Assembly (NCBI GenBank): GCA_007695095.1
Contig: REEL01000096.1
Span: forward strand, 1 to 43,033
Reading direction: 5' to 3'
DNA length: 43,033 nt
Origin: Chitinophagaceae bacterium
Lineage (GTDB): Bacteria; Bacteroidota; Bacteroidia; Chitinophagales; REEL01
Notes under the pieces: model-generated
Databases searched by the model: none
The model's input: the letters and a program-made list of their open reading frames with translations, nothing else
Told to the model about the DNA's origin: nothing
Translations under genes and position numbers: made by a program
Part shown: positions 1,274-9,723 of the stretch, piece by piece
How positions within the stretch are numbered: the first letter of the stretch is position 1
How the letters are laid out: each line of letters starts with the position of its first letter

Positions 1274-1852
1274 ATGAAAAATTTAATTTTACCAATCGTA
1301 CTCCTTTTTGGAGCATCAACACTTTTTTCCTGTGGAGGCTCACATGAACACGACTCGGAAGGAAATCATACGCATGAACATCTTGACGAAAATACAGAAG
1401 TGAATCATACAGAAGGTCATGCATCTCATGCAGAAATGGGACAAACCTTAAAACACTATTTCGACCTGAAAGACGGTTTGGTACGGTCAGATGCAGCAGA
1501 AGCCAAAGCAGGGGCAAATGCATTAAAGGCGCATCTTGCAGTTACAGAAATTACTGTCAAGGGGCACGAATCGCATATCAGGGGAATTGTCAGTGAAATC
1601 GGTGAACATTTAGAGCAAATCTCGCTTACTGAAGATTTGGAGGTACAGAGAAAACATTTTGAAACGGTTTCAGATCAACTCTATGCTTTAATTCAAGTTA
1701 CGGGAACATCCGGAAAAACTGTTTATCGCCAATACTGCCCGATGGCTTTTGATGACAAAGGTGCTTACTGGCTTTCGGCTGAAGAAGAAATAAGAAATCC
1801 CTATTTCGGTGATGCAATGCTGACATGCGGTAGTGTGGAAGAAAAAATGTAA
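1274..1852 (+). CDS. DUF3347-domain lipoprotein of the copper island
   Basis: The 192-aa protein begins with a hydrophobic segment ending in a lipobox-like LFSC (Cys20), so it is probably a periplasm-facing lipoprotein. Next comes a histidine- and acid-rich linker (residues 23-55, many His) that could bind metal. The rest is a helical DUF3347 domain ending in a CPMAFDDKGAYWL stretch and a GDAMLTCG stretch, which supply Cys and Met typical of Cu(I)/Ag(I) ligands. The same two motifs close the CusB-type adaptor at 7939-9723, so the two proteins share a domain. DUF3347 proteins are repeatedly found with Cus-type pumps; a role as copper chaperone or sensor is inference. A candidate -7 box lies at 1201. 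The gene stands before the GxxExxY gene, about 825 bases from cusA. Confidence 0.85.
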   Translation: MKNLILPIVLLFGASTLFSCGGSHEHDSEGNHTHEHLDENTEVNHTEGHASHAEMGQTLKHYFDLKDGLVRSDAAEAKAGANALKAHLAVTEITVKGHESHIRGIVSEIGEHLEQISLTEDLEVQRKHFETVSDQLYALIQVTGTSGKTVYRQYCPMAFDDKGAYWLSAEEEIRNPYFGDAMLTCGSVEEKM

Positions 1853-1876
1853 AGGGGGTTAGCAAATATTCTATAA

Positions 1877-2044
1877 ACTCAAAAATGAAAATTATTGAAC
1901 CACATAGAACACATAGAAAGTCACAATAGAAATTTCTATGTGAAACCTATATGAACTATGTGCCTATGTGGTAAAAAAACACTAATGGAATTAACTAAAA
2001 AATACATTGATGACTTGACCTGTAGGGTAATTGGTTTTGCTATT
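1877..2044. repeat. Direct repeat, copy 1 (partial duplication of GxxExxY leader and start)
   Basis: This segment matches 2101-2277 almost base for base. It lacks 8 bases in the ACATAG-rich left arm and one A in an A-run, and has a few substitutions. It includes the same ATG context and the first 20 or so codons of the GxxExxY gene, after which similarity stops apart from a short CATAAACAG at 2063-2071. The copied coding part is therefore a dead fragment. It also carries the palindromic leader described for copy 2. Confidence 0.9.
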
Positions 2045-2100
2045 AAAAGCCCTTCAAGGAAGCATAAACAGAACTTTGTATATTTGAAAGCACTTCAATA

Positions 2101-2277
2101 ACTCAAAAATGAAAATTATTGAACCACATAGATACATAGAACACATAGAAAGCCACAATAGAAATTTCTATGTGAAACCTATGTGAACTATGTGCCTATG
2201 TGGTAAAAAAAACACTAATGGAATTAACTAAAAAATACATTGATGACTTGACCTATAGAGTGATTGGTTGTGCTATT
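2101..2277. repeat. Direct repeat, copy 2, with imperfect palindrome of CATAG/CTATG units
   Basis: The copy spans the leader and first codons of the intact GxxExxY gene. Within it, 2124-2203 forms an imperfect palindrome. The left arm begins CCACATAG and repeats ACATAG units; the right arm repeats CTATG units and ends CTATGTGG at 2196-2203. A transcript would fold into a long hairpin that ends about 15 bases before the ATG at 2218. The same palindrome is present in copy 1. Confidence 0.88.
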
Positions 2278-2640
2278 GAAGTTCATAAACAGTTAGGTCC
2301 CGGTCTTTTAGAAAGCGTTTACGAAAAATGTTTTATAAGAGAGTTAGCTTTACAAGGGTTAAGGTATAAACAACAATTATGGGTACCACTGGAGTACAAA
2401 GGATTAGAATTGGATACGGAATTAAGATTAGATGTACTTGTAGAAGATGTTTTATGTGTTGAATTAAAATCAATGGACGGTTTATTACCAATACATGATG
2501 CTATTTTATTAACTTATATGCGAATGCTACAGAAACCTAAAGGCGTATTGATAAATTTTAATTGTGTTAATATATTTAAGGAAGGACAAAAAACTTTGGT
2601 TAATGAAATATATGCTGCATTACCTAATGAAAAAAACTAA
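2218..2640 (+). CDS. GxxExxY family protein (PD-(D/E)XK-like)
   Basis: The protein is about 140 aa. It shows the family signature G-x-x-E-x-x-Y (GLLESVY) near its N-terminus and the nuclease-like core LDVLVEDVLCVELKS, where an Asp and a Glu-x-Lys fit a PD-(D/E)XK fold. The start is placed at the ATG at 2218 (MELTKKYIDDL) because this ATG is conserved in the upstream partial copy, whereas the GTG at 2200 lies inside the palindromic arm. Family members are common in Bacteroidota and Proteobacteria and their function is not settled. A link to DNA or RNA processing is only inferred from the fold. The gene ends 37 bases before cusA but has no evident link to copper; it looks like a passenger inserted between the lipoprotein and the pump. 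Confidence 0.85.
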   Translation: MELTKKYIDDLTYRVIGCAIEVHKQLGPGLLESVYEKCFIRELALQGLRYKQQLWVPLEYKGLELDTELRLDVLVEDVLCVELKSMDGLLPIHDAILLTYMRMLQKPKGVLINFNCVNIFKEGQKTLVNEIYAALPNEKN

Positions 2641-2677
2641 TCACCCAAAAAATTACAAGCCATTTTAAAAATGCGTT

Positions 2678-5600
2678 ATGCTCGATAAGATTATACGGTA
2701 CTTTCTTGAAAACCGTTTAGTTGCTTTCCTGTTAACACTGATTTTTGTTGTTTGGGGAATTGCTACGGCACCATTTGCGTGGGACATAGACTGGCTTCCG
2801 CGGGACCCGGTACCGGTAGATGCTATACCAAACTACGGTGAAACACAACAGATCGTGTTTACAGAATGGCCGGGACGTTCACCACAGGATATTGAAGATC
2901 AAATCACTTATCCGCTTAGCACTTACCTGCTTGGTGTTCCCGGTGTCAAAACCATCCGCAGCACGACGATGTTTGGGTTCTCCAGTATTTTCATTATTCT
3001 GGAAGACGACATAGATTTTTACTGGAGCAGGGCAAGGATACTCGAAAAACTCAATGCCTTGCCTGACGGGCTTTTACCACAAGGTGTACAGCCCGCATTA
3101 GGCCCGGATGCTACGGCTTTGGGCCAGATTTTCTGGTACACCATTGAAGGCCGCGACCCGGATGGCAATCCAACCGGTGGATGGGACTTGCATGAATTAA
3201 GAACAATACAGGATTTTCATGTAAAATTTGCTTTGGCGACAGCAGAAGGCGTAGCTGAAGTTGCATCTATCGGCGGGCATGTAAAAGAGTACCAGATAGA
3301 TATCAATCCGGCTGCCATGCGCGGGTATGACATCAGTTTGCGTGAAATCGCCAATAGTGTCCGCAACAGCAATCTGGATGTAGGTGCCCGTACCATTGAA
3401 CTAAACAGGATAGAGTATTTTGTCAGGGGATTGGGCTATATCAAAAGCCTTGAAGATATTGAAGAATCTGTAGTTGCCGTGAGGGATAATGTGCCGGTGC
3501 ATGTGCGTGATATTGCAAAGGTAACAATCGGGCCGGCTCAAAGGCGTGGGGCATTAGGCAAGGGCGGAGCGGAAGTTGTTGGCGGTGTAGTTACTGTCAG
3601 GCATGGTGAAAATCCGATGCAGGTAATAGAAAATGTAAAAGCCGAACTCCCCGGAATAGAACAGGGCCTGCCTTCGCGTACACTCGAGGACGGAACAGTG
3701 TCACAACTAAAAATTATCCCTTTCTACGACCGGACCGAATTAATTCAGGAAACCATAGGTACGCTGGAACATGCCATTTCCCTGCAAATCCTGATTACGA
3801 TTATTGTGATTATCATCATGCTGCTCAACCTGAAAGCATCTTTGTTTATTTCAGGCTTATTGCCAATGGCAGTGCTGATGTGTTTTATTATGATGAAATA
3901 TGCCGGTGTGGATGCCAATATCGTGGCACTTTCCGGTATTGCAATTGCCATTGGGACGATAGTGGATATGGGGATTATCATGTCAGAAAACATGGTTTTG
4001 CATTTAAAAGAAGCCCGTAAAAAGGAACCCAAACTGGAAGTAATTCACAGGGCATGTGTGGAGGTGGCTCCGGCAATTTTGACTGCCGTTATGACTACCA
4101 TCGTCAGCTTTCTCCCGGTATTTACCCTTCAGGCAGCAGAAGGAAAACTCTTTTCCCCATTGGCATATACAAAAACCTTTGCATTGATAGCTGCCATATT
4201 TTTTACTATCGTTGTCATTCCCGCGGCTGCTTATGTGCTTTTTTCCGTAAAAATCAATTTCAAATGGATACGCGTTGCTGCCAATGTTTTACTGCTTATC
4301 GCAGGCATACTGGTAGCTGTTTTGTACTTCCCGCTGGCAGGTATTGTACTGCTGTTATTTGGCGTAAATAACCTGCTTGATGAGTTTACTGATGTTTTCA
4401 GTTCTGATGTGCATTCATACATCACAATTGCCATTTCTGTAATTTTTATCACTTTAATATTGGCAGAAAGCTGGCTGCCACTTGGCCCTGCACGTTCTTT
4501 GCTGATGAATACCATTTTTGTATTCCTGATTATTGGCTTTGTGTTGGGATTCTTTTTAATTTTTATTCGTTTTTACCGGGCGATATTAAAATGGTGCCTG
4601 GCAAACAAAGGATTATTCCTGCTTTTACCGGCTTTTTCCATCTTGCTTGGTGTTACAATTTGGTTGGGATTTGGAAATGTTTTTGGCTTTGTAGCAAATA
4701 GTTTTGATAAAACCGGAATGAACATTCGTACAACAAAAGTATGGCATAATTTGTATTCGACTTTTCCCGGTATTGATAAAGAATTCATGCCCCGGCTGGA
4801 TGAAGGTTCTTTTTTACTCATGCCCATTCTGATGCCGCATGCCGGAATAGAGGAGAGTCTGGAAACGCTTAAATATCTGGACAAGGCAGTGCAGTCTATT
4901 CCGGAGGTTGAACTTGTTGTCGGAAAAATCGGACGTGCGGAATCGGCATTAGACCCGGCACCGGTTACCATGTTTGAAAATGTGATTAATTATAAAAGTG
5001 AATACAAACTGGATGACAGGGGCAGGCGGGTGCGTTTTGCTACGGACAATGAGGGCGAATTTATTCGTGATGAAAACGGGAATCTCGTTCCGGACAGCAG
5101 GGGCAGCTACTACCGGCAATGGCGGGATCATATCCGGTCTCCACGCGATATTTGGGATGAAATAGCTGCTGTTGCACGTTATCCCGGCCTCACTACTGCT
5201 TCCATGTTGCAGCCTATAGAAACCAGACTGGTGATGCTGCAAACCGGTACACGAGCTTCAACGGCTATGTTGGTTCAGGGGCCAGACCTGCAAACCATAG
5301 AAGATTTTTCCCTGGAAATGGAAAATATTTTGCAGGACGTTCCGGGGGTAAATCCGCCAACTGTTTTTGCCGACCGTATTGTTGGCAAACCCTATCTTGA
5401 AATTGACATTAACCGCCGTGCAATTGCCCGGCATGGTTTGACGATACGCGATGTACAGGATTATGTAGAAGTCGCTATCGGGGGCATGACGCTCACAACA
5501 ACTGTTGAAGGCAGGGAGCGGTATCCGGTGCGTGTACGCTATGCCCGTGAATTCAGGGACAATCCGCATGATATAGAACGGATTTTAGTTTCCACTCCTT

Positions 5601-6478
5601 CAGGTGCTCAAATCCCATTGGGGCAACTGGCTGATATTAATTATGTGCAAGGGCCGCAGGCAATCAGGTCAGTGAATACATTTCCTGCCACTTATGTAAT
5701 TTTTGACATACTGGAAGGTAGTTCAGCCGTAGCTGTTGTTGAAAACGCACAAAACCATCTGGACGGGTTGCTTCAGTCGGGTGAACTTGAACTGCCGGAA
5801 GGAGTGAGTTACCGCTTTATTGGTGAATACGAAAATCAGGTAAGGGCAGAAAAAAGGCTTAGCATTGTCATTCCTTTAGTCTTGCTTATTATTTTAATGT
5901 TGTTATATTTTCAGTTCCGTTCGCTGATTACATCTTTTATGATTTTTTCTGCCATTGCCGTAGCATTTTCCGGTGGTTTTATCATGATTTGGTTTTACGG
6001 TCAGGATTGGTTTATGAACTTCTCCCTTTTTGGTGCCCACATGCGGGATTTATTCCAGATACACCCGATTAATTTAAGTATTGCTGTCTGGGTAGGCTTT
6101 TTGGCACTTTTTGGCATTGCAACTGATGACGGGGTAGTGATGGCGACGTATTTGAAACAATCTTTTGCACGCAACCAACCTGAAAACATTCAACAGATCA
6201 GGGAATCCGTAGTTGAAGCGGGCAGCCGCCGGGTGAGGCCATGCCTGATGACAACCGCCACTACTTTACTGGCATTGTTGCCCATTTTGACTTCTACCGG
6301 AAAAGGCTCCGATATTATGATACCGATGGCAATTCCGGCTTTTGGAGGCATGACGATTGTCATCATGACTTTATTTGTCATACCGGTTTTGTATGCACTT
6401 TGGCAGGAAACGCTTTTAAAAAGTAAAAAAACAGAAGATGAAACACCCATGTCAAAAGCTTTTGACACAAAGGAATAA
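2678..6478 (+). CDS. cusA: CusA/CzcA-family RND copper/silver efflux pump
   Basis: This inner-membrane proton-driven pump would move Cu(I)/Ag(I) through the adaptor and outer membrane channel encoded next to it. At 1266 aa it is some 200 residues longer than E. coli CusA. Two insertions explain this: an extra membrane-rich block of about 100 residues around 520-650, and a charged loop of about 40 residues around 780-825. The three CusA pore methionines (573, 623, 672) align with Met715, Met765 and Met853; the 50-residue spacing of the first two is kept, which favours monovalent copper/silver over zinc or cobalt. TM4 keeps the Asp (GTIVDMG), and TM10 has ATDDG where CusA has its Glu. The position of CusA Lys984 is Cys here (RVRPCLMTT). 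The gap to the TolC-type gene is 77 bases. Confidence 0.95.
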   Translation: MLDKIIRYFLENRLVAFLLTLIFVVWGIATAPFAWDIDWLPRDPVPVDAIPNYGETQQIVFTEWPGRSPQDIEDQITYPLSTYLLGVPGVKTIRSTTMFGFSSIFIILEDDIDFYWSRARILEKLNALPDGLLPQGVQPALGPDATALGQIFWYTIEGRDPDGNPTGGWDLHELRTIQDFHVKFALATAEGVAEVASIGGHVKEYQIDINPAAMRGYDISLREIANSVRNSNLDVGARTIELNRIEYFVRGLGYIKSLEDIEESVVAVRDNVPVHVRDIAKVTIGPAQRRGALGKGGAEVVGGVVTVRHGENPMQVIENVKAELPGIEQGLPSRTLEDGTVSQLKIIPFYDRTELIQETIGTLEHAISLQILITIIVIIIMLLNLKASLFISGLLPMAVLMCFIMMKYAGVDANIVALSGIAIAIGTIVDMGIIMSENMVLHLKEARKKEPKLEVIHRACVEVAPAILTAVMTTIVSFLPVFTLQAAEGKLFSPLAYTKTFALIAAIFFTIVVIPAAAYVLFSVKINFKWIRVAANVLLLIAGILVAVLYFPLAGIVLLLFGVNNLLDEFTDVFSSDVHSYITIAISVIFITLILAESWLPLGPARSLLMNTIFVFLIIGFVLGFFLIFIRFYRAILKWCLANKGLFLLLPAFSILLGVTIWLGFGNVFGFVANSFDKTGMNIRTTKVWHNLYSTFPGIDKEFMPRLDEGSFLLMPILMPHAGIEESLETLKYLDKAVQSIPEVELVVGKIGRAESALDPAPVTMFENVINYKSEYKLDDRGRRVRFATDNEGEFIRDENGNLVPDSRGSYYRQWRDHIRSPRDIWDEIAAVARYPGLTTASMLQPIETRLVMLQTGTRASTAMLVQGPDLQTIEDFSLEMENILQDVPGVNPPTVFADRIVGKPYLEIDINRRAIARHGLTIRDVQDYVEVAIGGMTLTTTVEGRERYPVRVRYAREFRDNPHDIERILVSTPSGAQIPLGQLADINYVQGPQAIRSVNTFPATYVIFDILEGSSAVAVVENAQNHLDGLLQSGELELPEGVSYRFIGEYENQVRAEKRLSIVIPLVLLIILMLLYFQFRSLITSFMIFSAIAVAFSGGFIMIWFYGQDWFMNFSLFGAHMRDLFQIHPINLSIAVWVGFLALFGIATDDGVVMATYLKQSFARNQPENIQQIRESVVEAGSRRVRPCLMTTATTLLALLPILTSTGKGSDIMIPMAIPAFGGMTIVIMTLFVIPVLYALWQETLLKSKKTEDETPMSKAFDTKE

Positions 6479-6494
6479 ACATTTTTGGGTGTTC

Positions 6495-6518
6495 CACCTG
6501 CCTGTTCGGCAGACAGGT
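6495..6518. repeat. Small palindromic (REP-like) element
   Basis: The sequence ACCTGCCTGTTCGGCAGACAGGT is an imperfect palindrome with a CCTG/CAGG core and a GC-rich loop, lying in the cusA to TolC gap. Short palindromes of this CCTGCCTG...CAGGCAGG type recur in many Bacteroidota genomes. It may act as a processing hairpin within the operon transcript. It lacks a T-run and is unlikely to be a terminator. Confidence 0.6.
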
Positions 6519-6555
6519 CGAATACCATTAAAGAAAAAAATTAAAATATGATGAG

Positions 6556-7815
6556 ATGAATAAACAAGTCAATACAATCTGTACCGCTTTGCTTTTGGCC
6601 GCGATTTTGATCGTTTGCATTTTGCCGGTAAAGAAGGCTGTTGCACAGGATAATATGCTTGAAACTTATCAGGATGAAGCAGCATCAAATAATGCGAATT
6701 TGCAGGCGTATTATTACCAATATCTGGCCGGTGTGGAAAAAATAGTGCAAACCCGGCTTTTGCCCATGACAGAGCTATCTGCGATTTATTTTCCGCAGCC
6801 ACTTGTCTTACAAATGGATCAACAGCTTGCAGGAGTTCGGGCGATGCAGTCATTTCCCTGGTTTGGGACAAGAAAAGTCATGCAGGAAAGTGCTGCATAC
6901 AATGCTCAATTTGCTTTGGAACAATATCAGCAAATCAGAAACCAACTGTTTTTTGATGTTGCCGGGACTTTCTATGAGTTAATGCAATTAGAAGAAGAAA
7001 TCCGCCTGATGCGGTCTAATATTGAATTGCTTGAAAGCATTGAGCAAATTGTAATCACTCGTTATGAAACAGGCCGGGCCAGTATGGCAGATTTGATTTT
7101 GATAGAGGTGGAAAAAGAAGATTTGAAAATCCAATTATTGAAACTTGAGGAAAAGAAAAATCCGCTTCATAATCGTTTTGCAGCACTACTTAACCGGGAG
7201 TATGAAGGTTTTTTTGCTCTGCCTGACACATTTGAAGCCCGGCAGTTAACCGATCCAATGGCAGAATTGAAAGACAGCATGCTTTTGCAACACCCTGGTA
7301 TAGAATCTTATATTTACAAAGAGTTAGCTTATGCAGAACAACAGCAACTTGCCCGAAAATCAGGTTTGCCTTCTTTTGGCATTGGCGTAGAATATATGGC
7401 GATGCAAAATCTTGAAAATAATAATCATTCGGCCATGTTTATGCCGATGGTGAGTCTCCGCCTGCCTTTTCAAAGAAAGGTGTATCAGGCAAGAGAACAG
7501 GAAGCCGTATTTAATCGCAAAGCAGCTTCTTTTCAAAAAGTACAGGCACAAAATCAGTTGATTACTAAATGGGAGGAATGGGTAAGCCGCTATCAGGATG
7601 CACAAAGGCGAATACCATTGTATATCAACCAATTGGACAGAATGGAACAAGCTTTGAGTATTATTCTGGAAGATTACAGTGCGGGCAGAAAAACTTTTGA
7701 TGAAATGCTGAATGTGCAGAGACGCATACTGGAATTTGAAATGGAATTAGTAAACGCAAAAAAAGATAACAATACGGCTGTAGCCGGTTTAACATATTTA
7801 TACCGGCGGCCATGA
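6556..7815 (+). CDS. TolC-family outer membrane efflux protein of the Cus system
   Basis: The 419-aa protein has a signal peptide (hydrophobic core to about residue 28, then AVAQDN). Two long helical outer-membrane-efflux-protein repeats follow, rich in Gln, Glu and Leu, with the typical PxxSFPW-like stretch near residue 95 (AMQSFPWFGTRKV). Its length and its place between cusA and the adaptor gene identify it as the outer membrane channel of the tripartite pump. Bacteroidota Cus-type channels are usually annotated only as TolC family, and sequence alone does not show metal specificity. The downstream gap of 123 bases holds a GC-rich hairpin and short ATGAAAC-type repeats. Confidence 0.9.
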   Translation: MNKQVNTICTALLLAAILIVCILPVKKAVAQDNMLETYQDEAASNNANLQAYYYQYLAGVEKIVQTRLLPMTELSAIYFPQPLVLQMDQQLAGVRAMQSFPWFGTRKVMQESAAYNAQFALEQYQQIRNQLFFDVAGTFYELMQLEEEIRLMRSNIELLESIEQIVITRYETGRASMADLILIEVEKEDLKIQLLKLEEKKNPLHNRFAALLNREYEGFFALPDTFEARQLTDPMAELKDSMLLQHPGIESYIYKELAYAEQQQLARKSGLPSFGIGVEYMAMQNLENNNHSAMFMPMVSLRLPFQRKVYQAREQEAVFNRKAASFQKVQAQNQLITKWEEWVSRYQDAQRRIPLYINQLDRMEQALSIILEDYSAGRKTFDEMLNVQRRILEFEMELVNAKKDNNTAVAGLTYLYRRP

Positions 7816-7821
7816 GCACCC

Positions 7822-7855
7822 ACCCGTCGGTACGCTTCTAAAGCGTCCGACGGGT
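7822..7855. repeat. Long perfect-arm hairpin between TolC-type and cusB genes
   Basis: Arms ACCCGTCGG (7822-7830) and CCGACGGGT (7847-7855) pair perfectly, and an inner pair CGCTT/AAGCG closes a 3-base loop. No T-run follows, so it may be a REP-like element or an RNA-stabilising hairpin rather than a terminator. It is one of two GC-rich palindromes found inside the copper island. Confidence 0.75.
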
Positions 7856-7877
7856 TTGGGAGTAGAAAGATGAAAAG

Positions 7878-7920
7878 ATTAAACAATGAAACAATAGAAC
7901 CATGAAACCATGAAACAATT
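7878..7920. repeat. Short tandem ATGAAAC/ATAGAAC repeats
   Basis: Five near copies of a 7-10 base unit (AACAATGAAAC, AATAGAACC, ATGAAACC, ATGAAAC) lie between the hairpin at 7822 and the ATG of the cusB gene. They create several small ATG codons that open no meaningful frame. The role is unknown; slippage-prone repeats of this kind are often variable between strains. Confidence 0.6.
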
Positions 7921-7938
7921 TATCAAAAATCTAAACAG

Positions 7939-9723
7939 ATGAAAAAACAAATTGCAATCATCATCCTTGTCTTTACCGCAGGCATAGTTGCCGGGTGGTA
8001 TTTCTTTGGCACAAGCGATGATGAACATACGCATGAAGCTGTCGTGGATAAAGACGAAGTTCATACTTGTCCGATGCATCCGCAGATCAGGCAGGATGGT
8101 TTTGGCAGTTGTCCGATTTGCGGAATGGATCTGGTGCCGGTAGATGCAGTTGACGAAAGTGAATCTTTCACGGAAATCAGGATGTCTGAAACAGCCATCA
8201 GATTGGCACATATCAGGACAATGAAGGTAAGTTCTCAAATACCGGAAAAAAAGCTGGAACTGAACGGGCGCATAGAAACAGACGAACGCCGGACATCCAC
8301 ACAAACCGCTCATTTACCCGGCAGGATAGAAAGGCTGTATATCACCTACACAGGTGAATTTGTCCGCAGGGGGCAACGGTTGGCTTCCATTTATTCACCG
8401 GAATTAGTTGCTGCTCAACGCGAACTTTTTGAAGCATTGAAACATGAAGAAACACGTCCAGTACTTGTCAGGGCAGCCCGCCAAAAACTCAAACAATGGA
8501 AGCTAACCGATGAACAGATTAGACAGATAGAAGAAAGAGGCGAAGTACAGTCTGAAATAGATATTTATGCCGATGTCAGTGGCGTTGTGGTCCGGCGGAA
8601 TGTCACAACCGGCGACTATTTCAGTGCAGGAACGGTATTGTTTGAAATCAGTGATTTGAGTAAGGTATGGGTTGTGTTTGAAGCTTATGAAGAAGACCTT
8701 TCCTGGATAAATGTTGGTGATACCGTAACTTTTAGTGCAGGTGAAAGGCCGGGGCAAAAAATGACAGCCCGGGTGGAGTTTGTTGACCCTTATGTTGACG
8801 AGCGTACAAGGATAGCAAGAGTCAGGACAAGCTTAGATAACCGCGATGGAAGGTTCAGGCCGGGCATGTTCCTGAATGGTGTAATCCATAGCAAATTTGA
8901 CCAATTCGGAAAAGTGATAACCGTTCCCAAGACAGCCGTGTTGTGGGGCGGAAAAACATCTGTGGTTTATGTAAAAAAGCCTGGAGTTGAGGAAACGATT
9001 TTTCAATTCCGGGAAGTTGTACTCGGGGAGCATTTGGGTGATAGTTACATCATTCTGGATGGGCTGAAGGAAGGTGAAGAAATTGCTGTTCACGGTGCTT
9101 TCAGCATAGATGCTGCTGCACAGTTGTCAGGCAAAGCCAGCCTGATGGGCAGGCATTTACTCGAAGTTGAAGAAATAGAATTTATTGTGGATGTTGGTGA
9201 TTTTAAAGATGAAACACCGGAAGCATTCAAAGCACAGTTAAGCAAGCTTTTTACAGCATATCTTAGCTTGAGTGAAGCTTTAATCGAAACAGATTACGCT
9301 GCCGCAAATAATGCACTGCCCGATGTGGAAGCGGCTTTGAATGAAATGGACATGACACTTTTAGCTTCAGATGCTCATGACTTATGGATGGAACATTTAG
9401 ATGCATTGGAAAAAGCAATGCATGACATGAAAGATGCCGGAGATATAGAGCATTTACGGCATGCCTTTGAACCCTTTTCAGATGTGTTGGCAGCGTCAGT
9501 AGAAAGTTTCGGGGTGAAAGACATAGAAGTGTATCATCAGTTTTGCCCGATGGCTTTTGACGACAGAGGTGCCTGGTGGCTAAGCGATACAGCACTAATA
9601 GCCAATCCCTATTTCGGGGATGTCATGCTTCGCTGCGGTGAAGTAAAAGAAAGGGAATTTAAAAAAGCCGCTCCCGAAAAGGAAAGTGCAAGAAGACAGC
9701 AGGAGCCGGGGCATGTGCATTAA
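7939..9723 (+). CDS. cusB: CusB-type periplasmic adaptor with heavy-metal-binding and DUF3347 domains
   Basis: The 594-aa membrane fusion protein would bridge the RND pump and the outer membrane channel. An N-terminal membrane anchor (residues 4-23) is followed by a His/acid linker and a heavy-metal-binding domain (HTCPMHPQI ... SCPICGMDL) with Cys44, Cys58 and Cys61 plus Met. Barrel-sandwich halves lie around residues 118-160 and 190-225, and a beta-barrel and membrane-proximal region run to about 400. The C-terminal part (about 430-570) is a DUF3347 domain with Cys536 in FCPMAFDD and Cys566 in MLRCGE, matching the lipoprotein at 1274-1852. The protein thus has putative metal-binding modules at both ends. 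The gene is 14 bases upstream of the ATPase gene, so the two are probably co-transcribed. Confidence 0.94.
   Translation: MKKQIAIIILVFTAGIVAGWYFFGTSDDEHTHEAVVDKDEVHTCPMHPQIRQDGFGSCPICGMDLVPVDAVDESESFTEIRMSETAIRLAHIRTMKVSSQIPEKKLELNGRIETDERRTSTQTAHLPGRIERLYITYTGEFVRRGQRLASIYSPELVAAQRELFEALKHEETRPVLVRAARQKLKQWKLTDEQIRQIEERGEVQSEIDIYADVSGVVVRRNVTTGDYFSAGTVLFEISDLSKVWVVFEAYEEDLSWINVGDTVTFSAGERPGQKMTARVEFVDPYVDERTRIARVRTSLDNRDGRFRPGMFLNGVIHSKFDQFGKVITVPKTAVLWGGKTSVVYVKKPGVEETIFQFREVVLGEHLGDSYIILDGLKEGEEIAVHGAFSIDAAAQLSGKASLMGRHLLEVEEIEFIVDVGDFKDETPEAFKAQLSKLFTAYLSLSEALIETDYAAANNALPDVEAALNEMDMTLLASDAHDLWMEHLDALEKAMHDMKDAGDIEHLRHAFEPFSDVLAASVESFGVKDIEVYHQFCPMAFDDRGAWWLSDTALIANPYFGDVMLRCGEVKEREFKKAAPEKESARRQQEPGHVH

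Follow-up and report, generated by a model that had tools for sequence, protein, structure and literature searches.

The GxxExxY gene and the palindrome that precedes it probably belong together as the components of a mobile-DNA system of the REPtron kind, in which a small nuclease would be the mover of the palindromes. This reading is carried by the bracketing of the gene by inverted arrays, the specificity of the repeat unit for the protein clade, the genome-wide co-occurrence of gene and palindromes, their presence or absence at orthologous sites, the predicted nuclease fold of the protein and the purifying selection acting on it. The palindrome family is large and apparently previously undescribed: in the open literature, no description was found linking GxxExxY/PF13366, or the repeat strings themselves, with flanking palindromes.

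The window, that is, the whole stretch of 43,033 nucleotides analysed, contains two copies of a CACATAG/CTATGTG palindrome followed by the start of a GxxExxY gene (Table 1). A preliminary description of this DNA had reported that the palindrome and gene start are repeated and that the first copy ends in mid-gene; the alignment of both copies, which is possible from end to end with 93-100% identity by block, bears out the repetition, and copy 1 indeed holds a truncated, decayed GxxExxY remnant. Homology of the two copies starts precisely at AACTCAAAAATG, and copy 2 contains one additional 8-base unit relative to copy 1. In each copy, a 24-base leader (AACTCAAAAATGAAAATTATTGAA) is followed by CACATAG units facing CTATGTG units and then by the gene start. 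The distance to the start codon had been given as 15 bases; the palindrome does lie just before the start codon, with the stem ending 13 bases ahead of it. The stop codon of the remnant falls where copy 2 starts, a profile search of the remnant gave no NCBIfam match, and the stretch between the copies (CATAAACAG..TTTGAAAGC) looks, by its sequence, like a decayed piece of GxxExxY gene body.

Table 1. Features of the duplicated palindrome and gene unit in the window.
Feature	Position	Strand	Basis
Copy 1: leader (AACTCAAAAATGAAAATTATTGAA), palindrome and opening codons of the GxxExxY remnant	1876..2047	+	copy alignment
Palindrome 1: CCACATAGAACACATAG ... CTATGTGCCTATGTGG	1900..1972	.	array pattern, RNA and single-stranded DNA folding
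GxxExxY remnant, truncated and decayed, with a stop after 38 codons; comprises the stretch between the copies	1985..2101	+	open reading frame, copy alignment
Copy 2 of the unit	2100..2280	+	copy alignment
Palindrome 2: ACCACATAGATACATAGAACACATAG ... CTATGTGAACTATGTGCCTATGTGGT	2123..2204	.	array pattern, RNA and single-stranded DNA folding
Intact GxxExxY gene, ATG to TAA, 140 aa, window-type (IFKEGQKT) clade	2218..2640	+	TIGR04256/PF13366 profile matches

Compared with shuffled sequences, both palindromes fold strongly, whether as RNA (palindrome 1, -28.3 kcal/mol, z -7.3; palindrome 2, -38.2 kcal/mol, z -9.3) or as single-stranded DNA (z -5.6 and -7.7, respectively). The array pattern CACATAGN{1,3}ACATAG has 5 matches in the window, against a chance expectation of 0, and all of them lie inside the duplicated unit. 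As these are also all 5 matches of the window's genome, the direct duplication is a local event, and a search with this pattern found no dispersed palindrome copies in that genome. No inverted arm follows the stop codon of the intact gene. The local tandem duplication left one decayed and one intact unit of hairpin and gene, with the 3' arm missing. The same genome holds a second GxxExxY gene, which belongs to another clade and has flanks different from those of the window gene. The element itself sits inside an apparent metal-efflux operon (window 1274-9723), between a gene for a His-rich lipoprotein and one for a CusA/CzcA-like RND pump, the latter followed by genes for outer-membrane and membrane-fusion proteins.

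To define the surroundings of related genes, 80 GTDB loci were retrieved with the protein alone as query. Across these loci, CACATAG occurs 86 times in the 100 bases upstream of the gene and CTATGTG 89+30 times in the 200 bases downstream, while the background of these units beyond 1 kb from the gene is mostly ~0-4 per 100-base bin. The usual layout is therefore array, gene and inverted array; in a variant, present in the window and in loci L035-L037, the whole hairpin stands before the start codon and no arm follows the gene. A motif-free control compared the 200 bases upstream of each gene with the reverse-complemented 200 bases downstream, using neighbouring genes as comparison: the inverse flank match exceeded the threshold in 52 of 76 GxxExxY genes versus 4 of the 222 other genes taken from these loci (p ~1e-26). 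Moreover, the two arms change together from locus to locus, since swapping arm partners lowers the share above the shuffle threshold from 70/94 to 27%. Separately, in L094 and L100 (~4412-4450) the next gene, encoding an acetyltransferase, appears to take its start codon (in L100, ATGTCTCTATGTGGTCAA) from the downstream CTATGTCTCTATGTGG arm; the inserted array may therefore have turned into coding sequence at these loci.

The repeat unit differs between GxxExxY lineages. Among the GxxExxY genes of the window's order, picked by family score, the arms of other clades are built from CACAGAG, CACGGAG, CGCAAAG, CACGAAG, GCGGATT, TAGGATT, TCTGAATTAGGATT or CATATAAG units, and a single genome may hold several GxxExxY copies, each with different units, so that paralogues carry wholly different unit sequences. 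Arm similarity correlates with protein identity at r 0.59, versus 0.28 for the similarity of sequence 600 bases off. On a tree of 174 proteins, built without the flanks, the unit classes, whose post hoc definition from inspected flanks is a weakness, change 14 times, versus at least 53 times in shuffles; CATAG and other units are separated by 3 changes. When labels were shuffled within each genome only, 10 changes were observed versus at least 17 in shuffles, and 0 of 500 shuffles were as low. These flank and tree comparisons indicate that the unit tracks the enzyme and not the host; a repeat determined by the host is ruled out because the unit stays tied to the protein tree under the within-genome shuffle. 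Beyond the window's order, other phyla were sampled through protein-fetched GTDB loci and plasmid records. The plasmid search returned 6 GxxExxY records; those of Bacteroides and Bernardetia have arms made of other units, while Sphingomonas and Gemmatirosa show a half array. Outside Bacteroidota, the GxxExxY genes of L197 (Sphingomonas) and L199 (Gemmatirosa) have half arrays of the CGCGAAG or CTCTGCG type upstream.

Palindromes of ~50-200 bases without a gene occur between genes in several genomes, and in L260 tandem clusters of ~100-base repeats lie on both sides of the gene. Among 299 genomes of the window's order, GxxExxY is present in 201: 47 carry the window-type gene and 154 other GxxExxY types only, leaving 98 without GxxExxY. 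At least 10 CATAG arrays were found in 16 of the 47 window-type genomes, 5 of the 154 with other types and none of the 98 (p=1e-10 for window-type gene versus palindrome richness); this threshold mostly reflects extra copies, because the gene's own arms yield only few matches. CACAGAG arrays, by contrast, favour the genomes with other GxxExxY types, the corresponding counts for at least 4 of them being 4/47, 23/154 and 1/98. Under the strict score, 8 of the 28 genomes with at least 4 palindrome matches have no window-type gene, these being either draft assemblies or orphans left after gene loss, and 27 of the 47 window-type genomes have fewer than 4 exact palindrome matches. The expectation that GxxExxY genes elsewhere are preceded by similar palindromes, and that the two travel together, is thus strongly supported by the loci of relatives, the protein tree and the co-occurrence in 299 genomes; the proposed genome search did find an association, in bracketing, in unit and clade, and genome-wide. 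Two further repeat arrangements were seen. In G140, which carries a window-type gene, the CACATAG half arrays of L145, L146 and L149 terminate with a small ATGCTTCGCAT hairpin and form tandem units of ~130-150 bases with no inverted arm, which is a different repeat design. In genome G187, the three gene-less palindromes L152, L154 and L155 share longer flanks (CTCAGTTTGAAATCAGG ... TTTCAAACTGAGATACTAC), which suggests either a larger repeat containing the CATAG palindrome or one entered by it.

Two orthologous sites show gain or loss when species are compared. At the sufD-sufS junction of one genus, 5 species carry GxxExxY with CACAGAG-type arms, in one case with an in-frame stop, 2 species retain array remnants alone and others have nothing; gain is not separable from loss with certainty at this site. 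Meanwhile, one genome (G094) has a gene-less palindrome between its dksA-like gene and lspA, where 6 sister species lack one. Empty sites, which the preliminary description had proposed to seek, therefore exist at both places; the clear target-site duplication sought along with them was seen at neither, a weak GAAAAAAT/CAAAAATC repeat being the most that the lspA site showed in a comparison of species too distant for a firm reading. No transposition event within one species was seen. The idea of a unit that copies itself is supported for the family by its dispersed gene-less copies and its presence or absence at orthologous sites, but the doubling in the window arose locally. Other insertions into operons occur at fabD-fabG (Sphingomonas) and between rpiB and a 2-oxoacid dehydrogenase gene, and a further one adjoins radA in a Bacteroides record. 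In L208 (genome G305), an unrelated palindrome (CGTCAGACGCCCTCGTCGGACG...) occupies the sufD-sufS site that holds GxxExxY in sister species.

The window protein belongs to the GxxExxY family, scoring 123.6 bits with TIGR04256 (cut-off 35) and 122.2 bits with PF13366 (PDDEXK_3; cut-off 22). Across 40 sequences, residues E31, D71, E81 and K83 (numbered on the 139-aa stretch 2221-2637) never vary; they correspond to the PD-(D/E)XK catalytic set. The AlphaFold model has a pLDDT of 96, and its best PDB matches in FoldSeek are Cas4 SSO0001, lambda exonuclease and LHK-Exo, with modest E-values (best 0.004); a sequence search of the PDB found no relative. Together, the conserved catalytic set and the predicted Cas4/lambda-exonuclease-like fold place the protein in the PD-(D/E)XK nuclease superfamily. 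The dN/dS of close pairs is 0.02-0.12, and therefore the protein has been kept functional by purifying selection. As for other origins, 50,697 phage records contained no GxxExxY relative and there was no credible PHROG match, so a phage origin was rejected, as was an anti-phage defence gene, no PADLOC model matching up to E 0.1.

The closest model for such a system is provided by the REP/RAYT (TnpA-REP) elements, REPtrons and REPINs. In these, each palindrome type has one gene, often with inverted palindromes on both sides, and a genome may hold several types; palindromes without the gene lie in intergenic positions, also in tandem clusters, and gene and repeat co-evolve (PMC6006769, PMC3733652); CGTC REPs without a dedicated transposase have also been reported (PMC3733652). 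The GxxExxY gene is likewise bracketed and accompanied by gene-less palindromes in related genomes, although the window's own genome has no dispersed copies. Membership in REP/RAYT nevertheless fails, because the enzyme is a PF13366 protein of predicted nuclease fold and not an HUH/Y1 tyrosine transposase, and because its palindromes are built as arrays of 7-9 base units, in which inspection by eye showed no 5' GTAG/CGTC foot; in addition, the Y1 genes of these genomes are not flanked by CATAG palindromes (0/20). A small open reading frame (ORF) within a stem of terminal inverted repeats and a patchy spread are shared with the 23S rRNA intervening sequences (IVS) that carry an S23p/four-helix-bundle ORF (TIGR02436), but the GxxExxY protein is unrelated, the insertions lie in protein operons instead of rRNA, and gene-less copies are amplified. 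As with MITEs and their parent insertion sequence, gene-less short copies share their ends with a coding copy, yet this coding copy has no known transposase, and neither fixed ends nor a clear target duplication were found. The TIGR02436 (S23p) genes at L165-L194 (e.g., L168, L170, L173, L181, L190 and L191) have their own short tandem flank units, of ACCAATCA, AATACTT, CGCAATA and CTAGTTA types, which are inverted across the gene in 11 of 27 tested; TIGR02436 is possibly a second family with the layout of array, gene and inverted array.

Other explanations assign the palindromes to a different enzyme or to RNA. That GxxExxY is a passenger between REP/MITE-like palindromes moved by a RAYT (Y1 HUH transposase) is unlikely: a Y1 transposase does occur in all 21 genomes with at least 10 CATAG arrays (223/299 overall; p=0.002), and the Bacteroidetes RAYT subclass 2.6 is flanked by atypical secondary structures (PMC6006769), but CATAG arrays lie within 400 bases of 0/20 Y1 genes versus 9/9 window-type GxxExxY genes in palindrome-rich genomes. 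With Y1 in 75% of genomes, it is a weak predictor (p=0.002), the window-type gene being the stronger one (p=1e-10), and within genomes the unit tracks the GxxExxY tree. A RAYT acting in trans is therefore unlikely, while a Y1 transposase is possible as a helper, since all 21 palindrome-rich genomes contain one. The chances of an IVS-like RNA element also appear small. RNase III processes 23S rRNA intervening sequences, and on this reading the arms would pair around the gene in the transcript and the stem-loop would be excised or processed, hence its neutrality in operons. An ORF in the loop of a long stem recalls the Coxiella IVS with its S23p ORF (PMC4990558), operons such as sufD-sufS and fabD-fabG do contain insertions, and the IVS family TIGR02436 has its own short-repeat arms (11/27); against this, no example within rRNA was seen, the predicted fold is of a DNA-nuclease type, and in many complete palindromes the loop holds no gene, one such palindrome lying between a stop codon and a terminator.

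The remaining alternatives concern the window more closely. Simple local slippage without wider meaning is improbable: it accounts for the direct repeat, the sole duplicated segment of its kind in the genome with 5/5 array matches, and for that repeat the slippage proposed earlier still stands, but it is refuted for the palindrome family, since the dispersed copies and the tie to the gene clade would be left unexplained. Least probable is the suggestion that the hairpin is a regulatory leader controlling translation or stability of the GxxExxY mRNA. The complete hairpin directly before the start codon in the window and in L035-L037, with its strong RNA fold, fits such a role; nonetheless, most relatives have a second arm after the stop codon, gene-less copies are dispersed with many palindromes having no gene behind them, and the units of paralogues are wholly different in sequence. 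A leader or riboswitch was therefore rejected, the region also having no Rfam match.

In the REPtron-like system favoured here, each GxxExxY lineage has its own palindrome type of tandem 7-9 base units facing each other; the gene normally lies between two inverted arrays, and gene-less palindromes are amplified where the genome has retained the corresponding gene. The small Cas4/lambda-exonuclease-like nuclease would recognise its own hairpin, probably in single-stranded form on the lagging strand or during transcription, and cut at or near it; the hairpin, or the hairpin-gene-hairpin unit, could then be copied to new sites through strand transfer or repair. More tentatively, GxxExxY proteins may be the engines of previously unrecognised minimal mobile elements spanning multiple phyla, in which a stand-alone Cas4-like PD-(D/E)XK nuclease would copy, both in cis and in trans, the array-type palindromes that belong to it, and in which unit and enzyme have co-evolved into many orthogonal pairs coexisting in one genome. 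An enzyme with dispersed palindromes is a known kind of system, and there is a fair chance that a new class is represented here.

GxxExxY is a common 'unknown' gene for which no described role was found, and the sequence-specific match between enzyme lineage and palindrome directly provides a substrate that can be tested. If the proposal is true, it would explain the CACAGAG-, CACATAG- and CGCAAAG-type repeat families of many genomes, REP-like systems would also have arisen with an enzyme unrelated to HUH transposases, and the coexisting enzyme-palindrome pairs would constitute a natural set of hairpin-recognition specificities.
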